Below are positions 45,078 to 53,858 of a stretch of 64,000 nt of DNA, piece after piece. The position numbers and the translations under genes are program-made. The first letter of the stretch is position 1. The number at the start of each line of letters is the position of its first letter. Source of the stretch: an uncultured Bacteroidota bacterium (GTDB lineage Bacteria > Bacteroidota > Bacteroidia > Flavobacteriales_F > PHOS-HE28); the NCBI GenBank assembly GCA_902826215.1, contig CADEDY010000008.1, positions 62,001 through 126,000 on the forward strand, in the 5' to 3' direction. The notes under the pieces are model-generated. The model had not been told where the DNA came from and searched no databases. It was given only the letters and a program-made list of their open reading frames with translations.

Positions 45078-46310
45078 TCACAAGTCCTCCAGGCCCAGGT
45101 GGTGGCCCATCTTCCTTTTCTTCGTGAGCAGGTAATCGCGGTTGTGCTTGTTCGGCGCGATCTCGATCGGGAGGTTCTCGACGATCTCAAGTCCGTAGCC
45201 TACCAGTCCGGTGCGCTTCTTCGGGTTGTTGGTGAGCAACCGCATCTTGCGCACACCGAGATCGTGCAGGATCTGTGCACCCACGCCGTAATCGCGGGCG
45301 TCCATATCGAAGCCGAGCATGAGGTTCGCTTCCACGGTATCCGCTCCGCGCTCCTGTAACTGATATGCTTTCAACTTGTTCAACAAGCCGATGCCACGAC
45401 CTTCCTGCTGCATGTACACGATCACACCGCGACCTTCCTTCTCGATGAGTTCCATGGCGCGATGCAATTGCGGTCCACAATCGCAACGGCACGATCCGAA
45501 GATGTCGCCGGTGACGCACGAGGAGTGCACGCGCACGAGTACCGGCTCCTCCGGCGTCCACGTGCCTTTGGTCAAAGCGAGGTGCTCTTCGCCGGTCGTG
45601 GTCTGTTTGTAGGCCACCAGTTCGAAGTCGCCGTATGCGGTCGGGAGTTTCACATCCACTTGACGCTCCACGATCCGCTCTTTTTGCATGCGGTAGGCCA
45701 CCAGGTCCTCGATGCTGATAAGCTTCAAGCCGAAACGCTTTGCGATGACACGTAGCTGTGGCAAGCGGGCCATGGAGCCGTCCTCGTTCATGATCTCCAC
45801 GATCAATCCGGCCGGTTCGAATCCTGCCAAACGAGCCAGATCCACGGCTGCTTCGGTATGCCCGGTGCGGCGCAATACACCACCGTTGCGGGCCTTCAAC
45901 GGAAAGATGTGTCCTGGGCGCGCAAGGTCCTCGCCCTTGGCAGCGGGGTCGATCAGGGCATACATGGTCTGCGAACGATCGCTGGCACTGATACCAGTGG
46001 TGGTGCCGCGACCTTTCACATCCACGCTCACCGTGAAAGGCGTTTCGTGCAAGGCGGTATTGTCCCGCACCATCAGGTCCAGGCCCAGTTGCTCGCAACG
46101 TTCTTCAGTGAGCGGTGCACAGATGAGACCCCGGCCGTGCATGGCCATGAAGTTGATGATCTCCGGTGTGCTGTTCCGAGCGGCCGTAACGAAGTCGCCT
46201 TCGTTCTCGCGGTCCTCGTCATCCACCACGATCACGACCTTGCCTTGTCGAATGTCCTCGACCGCGTCCTCGATGGTATCGAAGCCGATCTTTTCTTCTG
46301 TGGATCCCAT
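45078..46310 (-). CDS. ribBA: Bifunctional DHBP synthase / GTP cyclohydrolase II (RibBA)
   Basis: 410 residues from ATG 46310. The N-terminal RibB domain (1 to about 205) has [11 protein letters not shown] (the acidic metal loop), GLICAPLT and GHTEAAVDL; it converts ribulose 5-phosphate to 3,4-dihydroxy-2-butanone 4-phosphate. The C-terminal RibA domain (about 206-410) has the zinc cysteines in [15 protein letters not shown], the QQEGRGIGL catalytic region and [10 protein letters not shown]; it opens the GTP ring. Both supply riboflavin synthesis. It is probably the last gene of the lptF/glycosyltransferase directon (36-bp gap), but it has its own TACCTTTG box 6 nt upstream. Some bacterial fusions lack one activity; both sites look intact here. 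Confidence 0.95.
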
Positions 46311-46316
46311 GGAGCA

Positions 46317-46324
46317 CAAAGGTA
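46317..46324 (-). promoter_or_regulatory. -7 box of ribBA
   Basis: TACCTTTG on the minus strand, a full TAnnTTTG match, ends 6 nt before the ribBA ATG, predicting a leaderless mRNA. No FMN riboswitch can fit between this box and the start. Confidence 0.6.
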
Positions 46325-46346: not shown

Positions 46347-47534
46347 CTAGCCGCCGTGCCGCGGCGTATCAAGGATGATCCGCTCCAGGTCCGCTGCTGC
46401 CCTGTCCCAATCGAAGTGTTCATGCACAAAGCGGAATCCGTTCTGCGCCAATCGGTCGCTCTCCTCTGGGTCGGCCAGCAGACGAAGGATGTGGTCCGCA
46501 TAGTCCTGCGGGCTGTTTCCGATGAGGATGGAATGCCCCGGATCCGCGCCTACGGCGTTGTTGGCCAAAGCACTGGTGATGCACGGCAAACGCATGGCCA
46601 TGGCTTCCAGGATCTTGTTCTGGAGGCCGGTTCCGATCTGCATCGGAGCGACGAAGATCCGTGCTGTGGCGTAGGAGGTTCGGATGTCCTTCACCCAACC
46701 CGACACGGTCACCAGTGGATCCACCCTAGCGAGGTCGCGCACGCTGGCACTGGGGTCTACGCCGGAGATCAGCAGGCTCGTTCCCGGGCGCTTATGTCGC
46801 ACGATCGGCAGGACATGCTGCACCAGGAAAAGCACACTGTCGATGTTCGGTGGGTAGTTCATGTTCCCCGTGAAGAGCAGGTCGTGCGTCTTCGTGTGAT
46901 CCTGTGGGCTGAAGTGTCGCGTGTCCACGCCGTTCGGGATCACCTGCACCTGATCGCGTAGTGGGTGATAGATGAATTCGCGGTCCTGTGCGCTGATGAT
47001 GACCGAGTTGTCGAACAGGTCGAACATCAGGTTCTCGTAGCGGATCAAACGACGTGTTTCCGCTTGGAACAATGGGCGCAAATAGAAAGGCGAGGTTTCC
47101 GTTCTCCGCTCCATTCCCTTGGACAAGGTGTCCATGTAATCCAGCGTCTTCGGGAGTAAGGGATGGCTTCGCACGTATTCCGTGGTCCGCACCAATTGGC
47201 ACAGCACATGGTCGGGCTTCAGCTCGCGGATCACCTTGTCGATCGCACGTTGTGCACTTCGGTGGTGGAAGTAGGCCACCTGAAAGGGCAGGCGCGAGAA
47301 TACCGCTGATGCGAGCTTGAGAATGATCCGCCATCGCGGCACACGGATCACGTCGATGTGCGAACAGAATTGCTTCAGGTGCGCGAGGTGTGCCGGATCC
47401 GTGGGTGTGTCGCTCAGGCAGCAGAGGATCACCTCATGCTTGTGTGCCAGGCGGATCATCAAGTGATACGCCCGCAACTTGTCGCCTTTCTCCAAAGGGT
47501 AGGGTACACGAGAGAGCAACAACAACAACTTCAT
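46347..47534 (-). CDS. Glycosyltransferase, GT4-type
   Basis: 395 residues. A GT-B fold is indicated by MKLLLLLSRVPYPLEKGDKLRAYHLM at the N-terminus, VQVIPNGVDTRHFSP in the linker, DLLFTGNMNYPPNIDSVLFL at the start of the donor domain, and the donor motif GTGLQNKILEAMAMRLPCIT, where the EX7E Glu should contact the nucleotide sugar. It resembles sugar transferases of exopolysaccharide or LPS loci. The start overlaps the stop of the preceding glycosyltransferase by 4 bp. Probably acts on the cytoplasmic face of the inner membrane; donor and acceptor are unknown. Confidence 0.85.
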   Translation of the reverse strand: MKLLLLLSRVPYPLEKGDKLRAYHLMIRLAHKHEVILCCLSDTPTDPAHLAHLKQFCSHIDVIRVPRWRIILKLASAVFSRLPFQVAYFHHRSAQRAIDKVIRELKPDHVLCQLVRTTEYVRSHPLLPKTLDYMDTLSKGMERRTETSPFYLRPLFQAETRRLIRYENLMFDLFDNSVIISAQDREFIYHPLRDQVQVIPNGVDTRHFSPQDHTKTHDLLFTGNMNYPPNIDSVLFLVQHVLPIVRHKRPGTSLLISGVDPSASVRDLARVDPLVTVSGWVKDIRTSYATARIFVAPMQIGTGLQNKILEAMAMRLPCITSALANNAVGADPGHSILIGNSPQDYADHILRLLADPEESDRLAQNGFRFVHEHFDWDRAAADLERIILDTPRHGG

Positions 47535-48736
47535 CGCTTGCGCAAACGCTCATAGAAGGCCACGAGGTCCTCCACGATCCGCGTATCCGAATAGGAGGCC
47601 TCCACCAACTTGCGCGCTTCAATACCGAGCAGATCCCGGTACTCGGTCGATTCATCCAGTGCCACGATATGCGCCGCGAACTCCGTGGCTGTGTGCGCGA
47701 TCAGTATGTTGAGGCCTGCGGTGTATTCGATCCCCTCTGCGCCGATCGGTGTGGAGATCACCGGTTTTCCCAAAGCCATGCCTTCGATGATCTTCACGCG
47801 CATGCCGCCGGCCGAGAACAGTGGCACCACCATCACGTGACGGGAGCGCATGTAGTTAAGGGCATTCTTCACCCGACCGCGGATCTGCACTCCGGGCATC
47901 TCCCGCTTCAGCAACTCCTCGGGCATCTTGTTGCCGGCCAGGTGCAACTGTGCATTCGGCCGTTTCTTCAACACCTTTGGCCATACCTCATCCAGCAGCC
48001 ATTGGATGCCTTCTACGTTCGGAAGCCAATCCATGCTTCCCAAGTGGAAGAAAATGGTCGGACCTTCCTTGTGCTTGGTGTCGGTCTTGTATTCACCAGG
48101 TTCTACGGCGAACGGAATGGTGGTCACCGGGGTGCGCGTACCGTGTTCCAGGAAGTGCTCCGCATCCGACGGACTGATCGCGGCAACGCCATCCACCCGG
48201 TCCAGGATCGACATTTCGTAATCGTGGAGCTGCTTCGCGAGGAACTTGCGATACGGCCGCTTCAGGATGTTCTTCTCACCGGTGGCGATGCGATCCTGTA
48301 TCACGTGTTCCAAGTTGTGCGAACGCAGTACGATGGGGGAGTTGGTGTACCGCCGTATCGTTGGTATGTACGGCGTCATGAACAGGCTCTCCAAATGGAT
48401 GATGTCGAACTTCTCCTCGGTAAGCAGGCGGATCAACCGGATGTCCACGTCGGGCGAGAAGAACCGACTGATGTTGTAGTTGTCCGCGGTGAGCAGGTCC
48501 GTGAAGGCATCCACGATGTTCACGCTGGTGTCCACGTACACCCCTTCGATCCGTGTCTTCTCTTGGTAATCCTTGGGGATGGTCTCCAGGTCCAGCGAAT
48601 TCTTAGGGGTGCTGATGCACAGCACCTTTACCGTATGCCCCGCCGCCAGCAGGCCTCTCGTGAGGTTGTGCATGGCCTTGCTGCCGCCATCGATGGGCGG
48701 GTAGGGCGGTTTGTTACAAAGCTGAAGGATCCGCAT
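47531..48736 (-). CDS. Glycosyltransferase, GT4-type
   Basis: 401 residues from ATG 48736 (MRILQLCNKPPYPPIDGGSK). GT-B fold: the glycine-rich acceptor loop GGSKAMHNLTRGLLAAGH, DIIHLESLF and VLRSHNLEH in the N-terminal domain, then TIFFHLGSMDWLPNVEGI and the donor motif GGMRVKIIEGMALGKPVISTPIGAEG. Related to the following gene but not a close copy. The 5' end overlaps the lptF/G gene by 23 bp, and the 3' end overlaps the next glycosyltransferase by 4 bp, which argues for one tightly coupled operon. Likely in surface polysaccharide or glycolipid synthesis. Confidence 0.87.
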   Translation of the reverse strand: MRILQLCNKPPYPPIDGGSKAMHNLTRGLLAAGHTVKVLCISTPKNSLDLETIPKDYQEKTRIEGVYVDTSVNIVDAFTDLLTADNYNISRFFSPDVDIRLIRLLTEEKFDIIHLESLFMTPYIPTIRRYTNSPIVLRSHNLEHVIQDRIATGEKNILKRPYRKFLAKQLHDYEMSILDRVDGVAAISPSDAEHFLEHGTRTPVTTIPFAVEPGEYKTDTKHKEGPTIFFHLGSMDWLPNVEGIQWLLDEVWPKVLKKRPNAQLHLAGNKMPEELLKREMPGVQIRGRVKNALNYMRSRHVMVVPLFSAGGMRVKIIEGMALGKPVISTPIGAEGIEYTAGLNILIAHTATEFAAHIVALDESTEYRDLLGIEARKLVEASYSDTRIVEDLVAFYERLRKR

Positions 48737-50156
48737 GCGAACGCCTGAACAGGGAACGGAACCGCTCCCAGCCGCGATAATACGCATCGGCATCGAAGAG
48801 CGGGCTGTCCGTTGATGCCTTCCACGTTAATAGCAAGCCGATGGGCAAAAGCACCATGCTGCTGATCCACATGCCAGGCCAAGGGCTGAGCTTGCCCGAG
48901 ATCACCAGTTTCTCGGTGCTGAACGAGACGATGTGGAAGATGAGGAAGAAGATGATGGCGAACACCACGGGCAGGCCCATGCCGCCTTTGCGGATGATGG
49001 CCCCCAGCGGCGCCCCGATGAAGAAGAACAGCAGACAGGCCAAGGCCAACATGGGTTTGCGGTGCCATTCCACCTGGAAACGGGAGATCTGCTCCAACCG
49101 CCCGCGACGCTCTTCGGCCGAGCGGTCGATGAAATTGATGTTGTTACGCACCATGTTCACCGCCGCATCGTAGTAGTTGCGGCGTTGCTCGGGCGCGAGG
49201 CTTTTCTCGAAGTCGGTCTGGCTGCTCACCGTGGCCGTGTCCGCTCGGGCGGTGGTGTCGCGCGTCACGAGCAAGCTGTTGGCGAGGTGGCGCTGTTGTT
49301 CCTCCACCCGGTTCTGCATCTGCCGCTCCAAGCTGTCCTCCGCGAATTGCAGCTGACCGATGGTGAGCATCTTGTAATGGTCCTTGAAGAGGTCGCGGTC
49401 CGTGCGGTCCAAGCCCAAGCCGCTGAGGTCGAAGCGGATCTCGTCCTCGGCGAAGGTGCCGCGCATCATGGGGTATTGGCTCTTGGCTTCGCCGGGCGAG
49501 TGCTCGTCGTAGAAGTGGCCGTCGAACAAGGTGAGGATGAGGTAGGCGCCATCCGTGCTACGGCGCATGGTGCCCCGCTTGGCCCGCACCACCGTGCGAT
49601 TCCCTTGGAAGGGTGCCCGGTGGTCGTAGATCAGCACATCGCGCAACTCGCCGCCTTCCTGGTCCTTCTCCATCGCACGAATGCTGAACCCATCGATGCC
49701 GTTGTAGAAGATGCCCGGCTGCAGGTTCATCGTCGGCTTCTTCCGGGTGACATCCCAGAGGAGGGAGTGGAAGCGCAAATTGGCTTGCGGCAATACGTTG
49801 TTGCTGAAGTAAAAGGAACCAACGGCCAGAAGACCCACGGTGAAGGCCAGCGGCGTAAGGATGCGCAGAAGCCCCAGCCCAGCCGAACGCATGGGCACCA
49901 GTTCGGTGTTCTCGCCGAGGCCGCCCATGGTCATGATGCTGCTGAGCAGGATCGCCAAGGGTAAGGCCAACGGCACGAAGCTGGCCGTGGCGTACATCAT
50001 CAGTTCCACGAGCACGTACCATTCCAAGCCCTTTCCCATCAGGTCGTCCACGTACTTCCACAGGAACTGCATCACGAGGATGAACAGCACGATGACGAAC
50101 GTGATGACCAGCGGTCCCACGAACGCCCGGATGATCATGCGGTGCAGGCGTTTCAT
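48714..50156 (-). CDS. LptF/LptG-family permease
   Basis: 480 residues from ATG 50156 (a GTG one codon earlier is also possible). The topology is that of LptF/LptG: three TM helices in the first 125 residues (LVITFVIVLFILVMQFLWKYVDDLMGKG, a hallmark start), a large periplasmic jelly-roll domain (about 130-385) with a long helical insertion, and three C-terminal TM helices (about 385-450) with GAPLGAIIRKGGMGLPV, the conserved cytoplasmic loop. These pair with the LptB ATPase to extract lipopolysaccharide from the inner membrane. Whether this is LptF or LptG cannot be decided. It sits between the START-like gene and the glycosyltransferases. Confidence 0.88.
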   Translation of the reverse strand: MKRLHRMIIRAFVGPLVITFVIVLFILVMQFLWKYVDDLMGKGLEWYVLVELMMYATASFVPLALPLAILLSSIMTMGGLGENTELVPMRSAGLGLLRILTPLAFTVGLLAVGSFYFSNNVLPQANLRFHSLLWDVTRKKPTMNLQPGIFYNGIDGFSIRAMEKDQEGGELRDVLIYDHRAPFQGNRTVVRAKRGTMRRSTDGAYLILTLFDGHFYDEHSPGEAKSQYPMMRGTFAEDEIRFDLSGLGLDRTDRDLFKDHYKMLTIGQLQFAEDSLERQMQNRVEEQQRHLANSLLVTRDTTARADTATVSSQTDFEKSLAPEQRRNYYDAAVNMVRNNINFIDRSAEERRGRLEQISRFQVEWHRKPMLALACLLFFFIGAPLGAIIRKGGMGLPVVFAIIFFLIFHIVSFSTEKLVISGKLSPWPGMWISSMVLLPIGLLLTWKASTDSPLFDADAYYRGWERFRSLFRRSHADPSAL

Positions 50157-50196
50157 CACCGGAACAACGAAAAGGACAGGATGGTGGTATGCCGAC

Positions 50197-51087
50197 TCAC
50201 GCGCCCAGAACCCGCTTCAACTCGTGGATCTGCGACTCCCACAGCTGCTTGGTCTCCGCCACTTCGGGTGGCCATGCGTGGTCGGTGACCACCAAGCAGA
50301 CTTCGTTCGTCATGGCGTCCACGCGGATGCGCATTTCGTAGAAGGCCTCGGGGTCCTCATCGTCGTTGCGACGGAAGCGGATCACCTCGCCCAGCTTTCG
50401 GCCGATCAAGGTGGTCTCTTCGCGTTCCTGTTCACCCCAGATGAAGGTGTATTGGTCGTCGCGAACGTCAACGTCCTGGCAGTACCATTCGCTGAAACCG
50501 CTCGGGCTGCTGATCAGGTCATAGAGGGCGGTGGGGGTGCTGTTCAGGTAGAACTCCATCACCACGCGCTCTTTCAAGGGTAGTTTCTTAGGTGCCGGTT
50601 TCGGCATTGGCTTTGGCGCCACCATTCCTTCGGCTTTCGCAACAGGTGCGGGTGCCTTGGCAGGTGCTGCTTTCACAGGAGCCGCCTTCGGTGTTGGCGC
50701 GGCTTTGGCTGGTGCGGGTTTCGCCACCGGCGCCGTTTTCTTCACTGGTGCTGGCTTTGCGACCTTCTTGGCCACGGCCTTCCCGTTGGTGCGGGACGGG
50801 GACGTCTTCGGAGCAACTTTCACGATCTTCTTGATGGGTTTAGCGGCAACCACCTTTTTGGCTGCTGCTTTCTTAACTGCTTTAGGCTTCGCCGCAGGCT
50901 TCACTTTAGCTCCTTTAGCGGGCGCTTTTGACCTTACCACTGGCTTTGCTTTTGTTTTCGGCTTCGCAGCCTTGGCTGGCGTGGTCTTCTTGGCTTTGCC
51001 TTTCACCGCTGGCTTCGCTGCTTTCTTCGCTCCGGCTTTCTTGGTGGTGGGCTTTCCCTTGGGAGCACTTGTCTTCTTCTTGGCCAT
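50197..51087 (-). CDS. START-like (SRPBCC) protein with histone H1-like Lys/Ala/Pro-rich tail
   Basis: 296 residues from ATG 51087. Residues 1 to about 165 are almost only Lys, Ala, Pro, Val and Thr in short repeats (KKAGAKKAAKPAVKGK and similar), like histone H1 or Hc1/Hc2 tails: no predicted fold, strongly basic. Residues 170-296 form a compact domain (VVMEFYLNSTPTALYDLISS, GFSEWYCQDVDV, EVCLVVTDHAWPPE, ending LKRVLGA) that matches the START-like/AHSA1 domain, typically a stand-alone protein of about 130 residues in Bacteroidota. The tail suggests nucleic acid binding; the ligand is unknown. It precedes lptF/G by 40 bp. TACCTTGG at 51121-51114 is a likely -7 box. Confidence 0.8.
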   Translation of the reverse strand: MAKKKTSAPKGKPTTKKAGAKKAAKPAVKGKAKKTTPAKAAKPKTKAKPVVRSKAPAKGAKVKPAAKPKAVKKAAAKKVVAAKPIKKIVKVAPKTSPSRTNGKAVAKKVAKPAPVKKTAPVAKPAPAKAAPTPKAAPVKAAPAKAPAPVAKAEGMVAPKPMPKPAPKKLPLKERVVMEFYLNSTPTALYDLISSPSGFSEWYCQDVDVRDDQYTFIWGEQEREETTLIGRKLGEVIRFRRNDDEDPEAFYEMRIRVDAMTNEVCLVVTDHAWPPEVAETKQLWESQIHELKRVLGA

Positions 51088-51223: not shown

Positions 51224-51297
51224 GGCGCGGTAGCTCAGCTGGTTAGAGCGCGTGATTCATAATCACGAGGTCGGGAGTTCAAGTCTCCCCCGCGCTA
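51224..51297 (+). tRNA. tRNA with CAT anticodon, probably elongator tRNA-Met
   Basis: The acceptor stem GGCGCGG (51224-51230) pairs with CCGCGCT (51290-51296), with one G-U pair; D-arm TAGCTCAGCTGGTTAGAGC; anticodon CAT at 51258-51260 in loop TTCATAA with stem GTGAT/ATCAC; T-arm GGGAGTTCAAGTCTCCC; A discriminator; no encoded CCA. A CAT anticodon can also be tRNA-Ile2 (read as AUA after lysidine modification), and the body does not settle this. It is not initiator-like, because the anticodon stem lacks three G-C pairs. Confidence 0.9.
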
Positions 51298-51299
51298 CG

Positions 51300-51587: not shown

Positions 51588-52340
51588 TCAATCCCGAACG
51601 CAGCGTAGTGAATGGCCCATCGATCGGGCAGCGGTTCCGCTGCCTACCTGACCATACGAGTGGGACAGCGAATAGAACCAAGCACCCGTGGTGCTCCAGG
51701 GCGTTGAACTCCACCATATGGCCTCCGTATTCAGCGTGCCGAAAGTGCACAAGATGCCTTGGGCCCAACTACCGCCCACTGCGGAGAACCCACTTTCGTT
51801 CGTCGCCAGCACGTTCGGGTCCTGCCAATAGGTCGTGCCCACGGTCTTCATCTTCCCGCCGGCATCCAAGGGGCCGCCGAGATAGTCCACCAGTGCTGTC
51901 CATTCCACATCAGTGGGCACGTGCCATCCCGTGGGGCACACGTTGCGTGCATCGTCCACGGCGTACCAGTTGTACAACTTGCCATAGGGGTCGTCGTACT
52001 GGGCATTCTCATTGTAATGCACCCAGGCACCCGCGATCTGCGCGCACCACTCGGTCATGTTGCCCACGGTCGGGATCGGGTCGCCGTTGGCGTAAGTGGC
52101 CGTGCGCAGGTTCGCCGCCGTCCATTCCTGCCCGTTGCCATAGATCAGGGTAGGATAGGTGTTGCCGTCGATGTCCGTGACACCCGGCCCCGGTGTATAG
52201 ATGTACGTGTAGGTGATGCTGTCAATGGAGTTCACCGGGATCTGCAGCACCGTACCCGTGTTCTGGTGGATGTTCATGAACAATTGCGCCGACGACGCAG
52301 TGCCGCTCAGGACCAGAGCGAGAGAGGCAAGGAGTTTCAT
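51588..52340 (-). CDS. Secreted FISUMP-domain protein, copy 1
   Basis: 250 residues. The signal peptide (MKLLASLALVLSGTASSAQ) is followed by a short motif IHQNTGTVLQIPVNSIDSITYT and a linker YTPGPGVTDIDGNTY. The rest is a Fibrobacter succinogenes major paralogous (FISUMP) domain: NGQEWTAANLRTATYANG, LYNWYAVDDARNVCPTGWHVPTD, WWSSTPW and the terminal SMGHSLRCVRD. FISUMP domains are extracellular, probably with a C-type-lectin-like fold; the function is unknown. There is no T9SS domain. It lies 40 bp downstream of the small T9SS gene on the same strand, and has a close paralogue at 53100-53858. Confidence 0.85.
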   Translation of the reverse strand: MKLLASLALVLSGTASSAQLFMNIHQNTGTVLQIPVNSIDSITYTYIYTPGPGVTDIDGNTYPTLIYGNGQEWTAANLRTATYANGDPIPTVGNMTEWCAQIAGAWVHYNENAQYDDPYGKLYNWYAVDDARNVCPTGWHVPTDVEWTALVDYLGGPLDAGGKMKTVGTTYWQDPNVLATNESGFSAVGGSWAQGILCTFGTLNTEAIWWSSTPWSTTGAWFYSLSHSYGQVGSGTAARSMGHSLRCVRD

Positions 52341-53099: not shown

Positions 53100-53858
53100 T
53101 CAATCCCGAACGCAGCGCACCGAGTGGCCCATTTCCCTGTTCTGAGGTGGGGTGAGCACAAACCCGGAGGTATGTAAGAGCGAGATCGTATATGCACGTG
53201 TGCTGTTCTCTGGTGTTGAACTCCACCATGTGCCTTTCTCGTGAAGCGGACTGAAGGTGCATAGGATCGAATTGGCAAAACCACCTCCCATGCCTCCAAA
53301 ACCACTTTCGTTGGTGGCCTCTGCATTCGGCTCCAGCCAATGGTCGGTGCCCACGGTCTTCATCTTCCCGCCGGCCGTTAAGGAGCCGCCGAGAAAGTCC
53401 AGCAACGCAGTCATCTCCACATTGGTGGGCACATGCCAGCCCGCAGGGCACACGTTGCGTGCATCCGCCACGGCGTACCAGTTGTACAATTTGCCGTAGG
53501 GATCCTCGTACTGCACATCCAGGTCATAATGCACCCAAGCACCCGTGTCCAAGGCGCACCATTCGTCCAAGACCGCCACCGTAGGAATGGGATCGCCGTT
53601 GGCGTAGGTGGCCGTGCGCAGGTTCGCCCCCGTCCACTCCTGACCGTTGCCATAGATCAGGGTGGGATAGGCGTTGCCGTCGATGTCCGTGACCCCCGGC
53701 CCTGGTGTGTACACGTAGAAGAAGGTGTACGTAATGCTGTCGATGGCGTTCTGCGGCACCTCCAGCACCGCACCCGTGTTCTGGTGGATATTCATGATGG
53801 TCTGCGCCGAAAGCGCAGTACCAACAAGGACCAAGGCGAGGCAGGCGAGGTGTTTCAT
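53100..53858 (-). CDS. Secreted FISUMP-domain protein, copy 2
   Basis: 252 residues, same layout as copy 1: signal peptide (MKHLACLALVLVGTALSAQ), IHQNTGAVLEVPQNAIDSITYT, YTPGPGVTDIDGNAY, then the FISUMP domain ending REMGHSVRCVRD. The 5' half is nearly identical to copy 1, while the region from about residue 185 onward differs strongly (SILCTFSPLHEKGTWWSSTP versus GILCTFGTLNTEAIWWSSTP, then dissimilar). The 11 nt before the ATG (CGCACGAAGCC) match those of copy 1, so the leader was duplicated too. Extracellular; role unknown. Confidence 0.85.
   Translation of the reverse strand: MKHLACLALVLVGTALSAQTIMNIHQNTGAVLEVPQNAIDSITYTFFYVYTPGPGVTDIDGNAYPTLIYGNGQEWTGANLRTATYANGDPIPTVAVLDEWCALDTGAWVHYDLDVQYEDPYGKLYNWYAVADARNVCPAGWHVPTNVEMTALLDFLGGSLTAGGKMKTVGTDHWLEPNAEATNESGFGGMGGGFANSILCTFSPLHEKGTWWSSTPENSTRAYTISLLHTSGFVLTPPQNREMGHSVRCVRD

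Follow-up and report, generated by a model that had tools for sequence, protein, structure and literature searches.

A lipid-type START domain, encoded beside LPS-export genes in an uncultured Bacteroidota bacterium, carries a tail of Lys, Ala and Pro that resembles histone H1 in its composition. This fusion recurs widely and tracks with similar tails on two proteins connected with the chromosome. Tails of the H1 type had been described on a few bacterial proteins, most of which bind DNA, and the START_2 family was also known already; what is new is their fusion, its recurrence and the company in which it is found. The interpretation that we favor, to which we give about an even chance, is a two-part adaptor in which a domain binding a ligand or partner from the LPS pathway is joined to a polycation that tethers it to the nucleoid or to another polyanion. 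If such tails address proteins to the nucleoid, the proteins that a bacterium collects there could be listed from its sequence, and START_2 would gain a first point of entry for study.

Searches of the open-licence literature found nothing on the fusion of an H1-like tail with START_2, no paper on lysine-rich DksA in Bacteroidetes, none describing the START_2 fusion among H1-like or lysine-rich tails in the phylum, and none for PF19569 or its Pfam description. A START-like domain in Bacteroidetes is treated in one article, whose relevant passages are about sterols (PMC10942540).

Architecture of the START_2 fusion protein

The window (the whole stretch of 64,000 nucleotides that was analyzed) contains the gene at 50197..51087 on the minus strand, with the ATG at 51087 and the stop codon at 50197-50199, coding for 296 aa. 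A previous sequence-only reading had located it correctly, without giving the strand, and had described a Lys/Ala/Pro stretch of about 165 residues ahead of a START-like domain. The fusion is real, as indicated by the composition and by the Pfam match. The tail covers residues 1-165 (50593..51087, minus strand) and is predicted to be disordered, and Lys makes up 29%, Ala 26% and Pro 17% of residues 1-171. The domain follows at residues 172-296 (50197..50574 with the stop codon, minus strand) and matches START_2, PF19569, with 99.6 bits over a cut-off of 23.6 (E=1.6e-28), covering positions 4-126 of a profile of 126. One START_2 match was found in the own genome of the bacterium, and a consensus scan for a promoter of the gene gave no match.

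Modelled alone, the domain had a pLDDT of 95.5 and showed strands followed by a helix at 107-129, that is, the curved beta sheet and long C-terminal helix of the SRPBCC/AHSA1-type fold. Aha1-type and other START-superfamily chains were among the best 50 PDB structure matches listed, which had Z values of 13.3-16.0 and rmsd of 2.1-3.4 over 116-129 aligned residues. The nearest solved relative by sequence was PDB 2lio (E=2.6e-20); it was absent among those best 50, which does not argue against kinship. When the full-length protein was modelled, the domain was the sole folded part, and the tail had a pLDDT of about 50 without secondary structure. The tail had also been called H1-like from the sequence. 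This is true of the composition and of the predicted disorder, and does not extend further: START_2 was the sole Pfam family matched by the whole protein at E<=1, with no linker-histone model among the matches, and neither Pfam nor the full-length model gave a globular winged-helix domain. Since no such domain was found, the protein is not a histone H1 and "H1-like" describes only its composition.

Distribution of the fusion

Among genomes at least 80% complete the order consists of this one genus. The START_2 gene was present in 43 of the 44 genus relatives (the exception, G012, is 76% complete), and the tail was found in every one of the 44 genus genomes with the gene, own genome included, although in three of them (G009, G029 and G040) the gene runs into a contig end and the tail is seen in part. 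The tail is thus present in the close homologues, on which the sequence-only reading had made its proposal depend.

A class-wide search found START_2 in 342 of 396 genomes, and the gene was read in 128 of them, belonging to 48 family groups; this sample is non-random, many genomes having been chosen for their long open frames. Thirteen of the groups were tailed only, 3 mixed and 32 untailed only, in keeping with the earlier statement that the START-like domain usually stands alone. Outside the genus, 30 of 84 genomes were tailed, in 15 groups, and 54 were untailed, in 35 groups, which brings the family groups with the fusion to 16 in all. These counts include as tailed three genomes missed by the automatic tail flag: G027, diluted by an upstream open frame, G040, at a contig end, and G112, with low Ala and at a contig start. 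G058, which has a Lys-rich extension of 49 residues, was scored as untailed. The START-domain tree is weak, with 21 of 123 inner branches well supported. Parsimony requires 9 changes of the tail on it and the well-supported branches force only 2, and therefore the fusion has been gained or lost more than once.

Similar tails on other proteins

When the own genome was searched with the tail as a protein, only the tail itself matched, probably because low complexity is discounted. Two DNA patterns for lysine-rich stretches gave 11 places (control 2) and 8 places (control 1); they may miss tails, and neither detects the one in the window. Three of these places (L187, L188 and L190) look like chance. 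In the own genome, a DksA/TraR-like protein (L179, G000:C2 near 141655) carries about 170 tail residues at its N-terminus, and TopA has a C-terminal tail of the same kind. A short C-terminal tail was also found on a protein tentatively named glyoxalase-like (23 bits, below the cut-off of 24.5), so that tails of this kind extend beyond proteins that work on nucleic acids. Besides, there are two small Lys/Ala-rich ORFs. One (L180, G000:C5:38161-38273) has 44 codons from the ATG with KKAAP-type repeats throughout and is possibly a free-standing H1-like peptide; the other (L189, C28:26423) has 69 residues.

The DksA-like protein was present in 78 of 80 chosen genomes (G014 and G087, without a match, were dropped), and the own genome was added to the comparison. 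Sequences were fetched for the 40 genomes whose open frames were longest; the tail was at least 80 residues long in 39 and 48 residues in the remaining one. The 38 unfetched genomes were scored as untailed, since their open frames, of at most 157 codons, leave no room for 80 tail residues. A DksA-like tail was found in 31 of 36 genomes with a tailed START_2 versus 9 of 43 with an untailed one, or in 13 of 14 versus 6 of 31 family groups (each given the state of its majority, with ties counted as untailed), in both cases ignoring relatedness. TopA was fetched from 40 of 44 genomes, keeping as untailed G056 (contig end) and G316 (early stop), and was tailed in 18 of 21 START-tailed versus 6 of 19 untailed genomes, again ignoring relatedness. 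With related genomes treated as independent, the Fisher values were 5e-9 (DksA-like, genomes), 4e-6 (DksA-like, family groups) and 9e-4 (TopA). Supported branches provided only 2-3 independent contrasts, too few for a test, also after adding TopA. Where the second trait differed in a contrast, it did so nearly always in the same direction; on the START tree there was mostly no difference. Exceptions were five START-tailed genomes whose DksA-like protein lacks the tail, four of them in family group f28 (TopA was read in two of these four and was tailed in both), and, in reverse, nine genomes, G058 included, with a DksA-like tail and an untailed START_2. Our analysis indicates that the START_2 tail mostly tracks with those of the DksA/TraR-like protein and TopA, as a correlation and not as a set of independent events. 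The presence of such tails on these two proteins lends indirect support to the suggestion of the sequence-only reading that the fusion might link a ligand-sensing fold to DNA.

Strong polycations bind RNA, polyphosphate and anionic lipid as well as DNA. The tail, being a lysine polycation without DNA specificity, might bind polyphosphate or RNA and place the protein in granules or condensates, an explanation that we consider unlikely: the same kind of tail is found on TopA and on DksA-like proteins, which act on DNA and transcription. In its favor, the Lys/Ala/Pro composition resembles the KPAA tail of AlgP, a protein reported to sit on polyphosphate granules (PMC9239181).

Gene neighbourhood and envelope lipids

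The gene heads a series on the minus strand. About 40 bp downstream lies a permease of the LptF/LptG family at 48714..50159 (PF03739, E=1.2e-70), for which the NCBIfam models of LptF and of LptG both score below their cut-offs. Two GT4-type glycosyltransferases follow, one at 47531..48793 (PF13692/PF13439), whose given ORF start overlaps the permease gene and for which inspection pointed to an internal ATG near 48736 as the likelier start, and the other at 46347..47534 (PF13692/PF00534). The Pfam matches agree with the lptF/G and two glycosyltransferases expected from the earlier reading. Next is ribBA (DHBP synthase/GTP cyclohydrolase II) at 45078..46319 (PF00926 and PF00925, minus strand). 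Upstream of the START_2 gene a divergent tRNA-Met was located by ARAGORN at 51224..51298 on the plus strand, and two nearby paralogues with a Fibrobacter succinogenes major domain (PF09603) lie at 51588-52337 and 53100-53858 on the minus strand.

The co-directed LptF/G gene downstream is kept across relatives. Of the 44 genus genomes, 43 have it within 250 bp, and the sequence of the other, G030, stops at a contig end; the order of permease and both glycosyltransferases is maintained in the genus loci with enough flank, most of which also have ribBA downstream (not G018 and G040). Outside the genus, counts are limited to the fetched stretch, with only 1.5 kb of flank at some loci: LptF/G was found downstream on the same strand in 8 of the 30 other tailed genomes (within 250 bp in 1) and in 31 of the 54 untailed ones (within 250 bp in 20). 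A PAP2 phosphatase (PF01569) was in the stretch in 16 of the 30 other tailed and 8 of the 54 untailed genomes, in these lineages often together with a PMT_2/ArnT-like gene and sometimes with a family 2 glycosyltransferase; PAP2 and ArnT-like calls come from BLAST clusters, with one representative of each checked in Pfam. At least one of LptF/G and PAP2 was near START_2 in 56 of the 84 non-genus genomes, both in six, and neither in 28, which include 9 of the 30 other tailed genomes. Three loci (L102, L144 and L157) have PAP2, LptF/G and START_2 in one stretch, and give the impression of an insertion that placed the PAP2 and ArnT-like genes between LptF/G and START_2.

The LptF/G, PAP2, ArnT-like and glycosyltransferase families act on lipid A, lipid phosphates and lipid-linked sugars. 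Because the domain has such neighbours with the tail or without it, START_2 probably works in an envelope-lipid pathway in either form. These neighbour families might suggest that the tail binds the inner membrane or the phosphates of lipid A and so brings START_2 to LptF/G at the cytoplasmic face. We regard this as quite improbable. The untailed homologues have the same neighbours, so the neighbourhood does not require the tail. Membrane-binding basic stretches typically contain aromatic residues, which the tail lacks (F+W+Y about 0.2% in the genus), and the TopA and DksA-like proteins that carry similar tails are cytosolic and work on DNA and transcription.

Composition and drift of the tail

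The tail does vary in length among relatives, as the sequence-only reading had proposed to check, from 125 to 291 aa in 40 genus genomes (G009, G029, G040 and G027 left out), counted from the first ATG, which is possibly too early in a few. A fixed rule for a Lys/Ala/Pro segment selected 73 of 5,458 ORFs in 129 stretches; all 73 were START_2 ORFs, the one of the window counted twice, and no other ORF of the loci had such a segment. All 71 tails examined had a net charge per residue above that obtained after shuffling their own nucleotides (mean 0.266 vs 0.122), with Lys fractions of 0.26 vs 0.08, and the median K/(K+R) was 0.90 in tails against 0.32 in domains. Within the genus (41 tails), Lys decreases with GC (rho -0.60) and Arg increases (rho 0.58), leaving a smaller change of Lys+Arg (rho -0.29, p=0.06). 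When all 72 tails are taken together, Lys+Arg decreases with rising GC (rho -0.55), and tail charge is therefore not independent of base composition. Sequence and length drift, and the positive charge is kept across the tails. In 9 of the 41 genus tails (L050, L051, L057, L060, L062, L065, L067, L068 and L075) the otherwise drifting sequence contains, shortly ahead of the domain, a motif like QAVMxGxEP that might be a short motif for binding.

The strong drift, such as replication slippage could produce, and the fact that both Lys+Arg and Ala+Pro follow GC over all tails would be expected of a neutral low-complexity expansion without function. Such an origin seems very unlikely to us, given the presence of the tail throughout the genus and in 15 more family groups, the charge in excess of shuffled nucleotides, the preference for Lys over Arg that the domains do not share, and the restriction of such segments to START_2 among the ORFs of the loci. 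Least credible is that the tail folds back as an intramolecular lid on the acidic domain, for which the charges speak (domain mean about -11, genus tails median about +53), but the tail charge is far above that of the domain, domains without a tail are as acidic as those with it (median pI 4.46 vs 4.51) and the model shows no tail structure.

Proposed mechanism

In the two-part adaptor that we favor, the C-terminal SRPBCC domain would bind a hydrophobic ligand or a protein partner of the lipid A/LPS pathway, as its fold and gene neighbours suggest, and the disordered N-terminal polycation would anchor the protein to a polyanion in the cytoplasm, most probably the chromosomal DNA, in the manner of the H1-type tails of TopA, AlgP and PhaF that serve as models for the tether. 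The charge is kept, as the comparison shows, and so probably is the lack of structure, as predicted for the protein of the window, the only one modelled. The tail would be an add-on, gained or lost more than once in lineages that mostly also tail their DksA/TraR-like protein and TopA. A possible outcome is that the protein is kept off the membrane until a ligand appears; alternatively, a function linked to LPS may be placed near the nucleoid.

As a wider and rather unlikely extension, H1-like tails reaching about 300 residues might serve many Bacteroidia as one shared electrostatic address tag, which would bring START_2, the DksA/TraR-like factor and TopA together at the nucleoid or in the same condensate. 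Such a tag, if true, would link the status of envelope lipids with supercoiling and transcription.

Comparison with known systems

The protein has nearly the whole PF19569 profile, and shares the frequent vicinity of LptF/G with the untailed members of START_2; it differs from them in the long tail ahead of the domain. The chlamydial histone H1-like proteins Hc1 and Hc2 are similarly lysine-rich, and are DNA-binding proteins not known to have a START domain. Their profiles gave no match to the START_2 protein at E<=1, although HMMER discounts low-complexity sequence. Hc2 is reported to vary in size with the number of its lysine-rich pentamers (PMC2848022).

Closer in design are AlgP and PhaF of Pseudomonas, in which a Lys/Ala/Pro-rich tail is joined to an unrelated domain. 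The source cited above for AlgP describes its KPAA tail as binding DNA, and PhaF as a presumed link between a hydrophobic granule and the chromosome (PMC9239181). In START_2 the tail is N-terminal and the partner domain is SRPBCC; we liken it to these proteins by composition and infer the binding. In actinobacterial TopA, and also in Caulobacter and Bordetella, a conserved enzyme carries lysine repeats resembling histone H1, in actinobacteria within the domain that gives processivity (PMC7398561). There the tail is C-terminal and belongs to a DNA enzyme, whereas that of START_2 is N-terminal and precedes a domain without a known DNA role. By analogy, PhaF, AlgP and lysine-repeat TopA would be the nearest working analogues of the tail.
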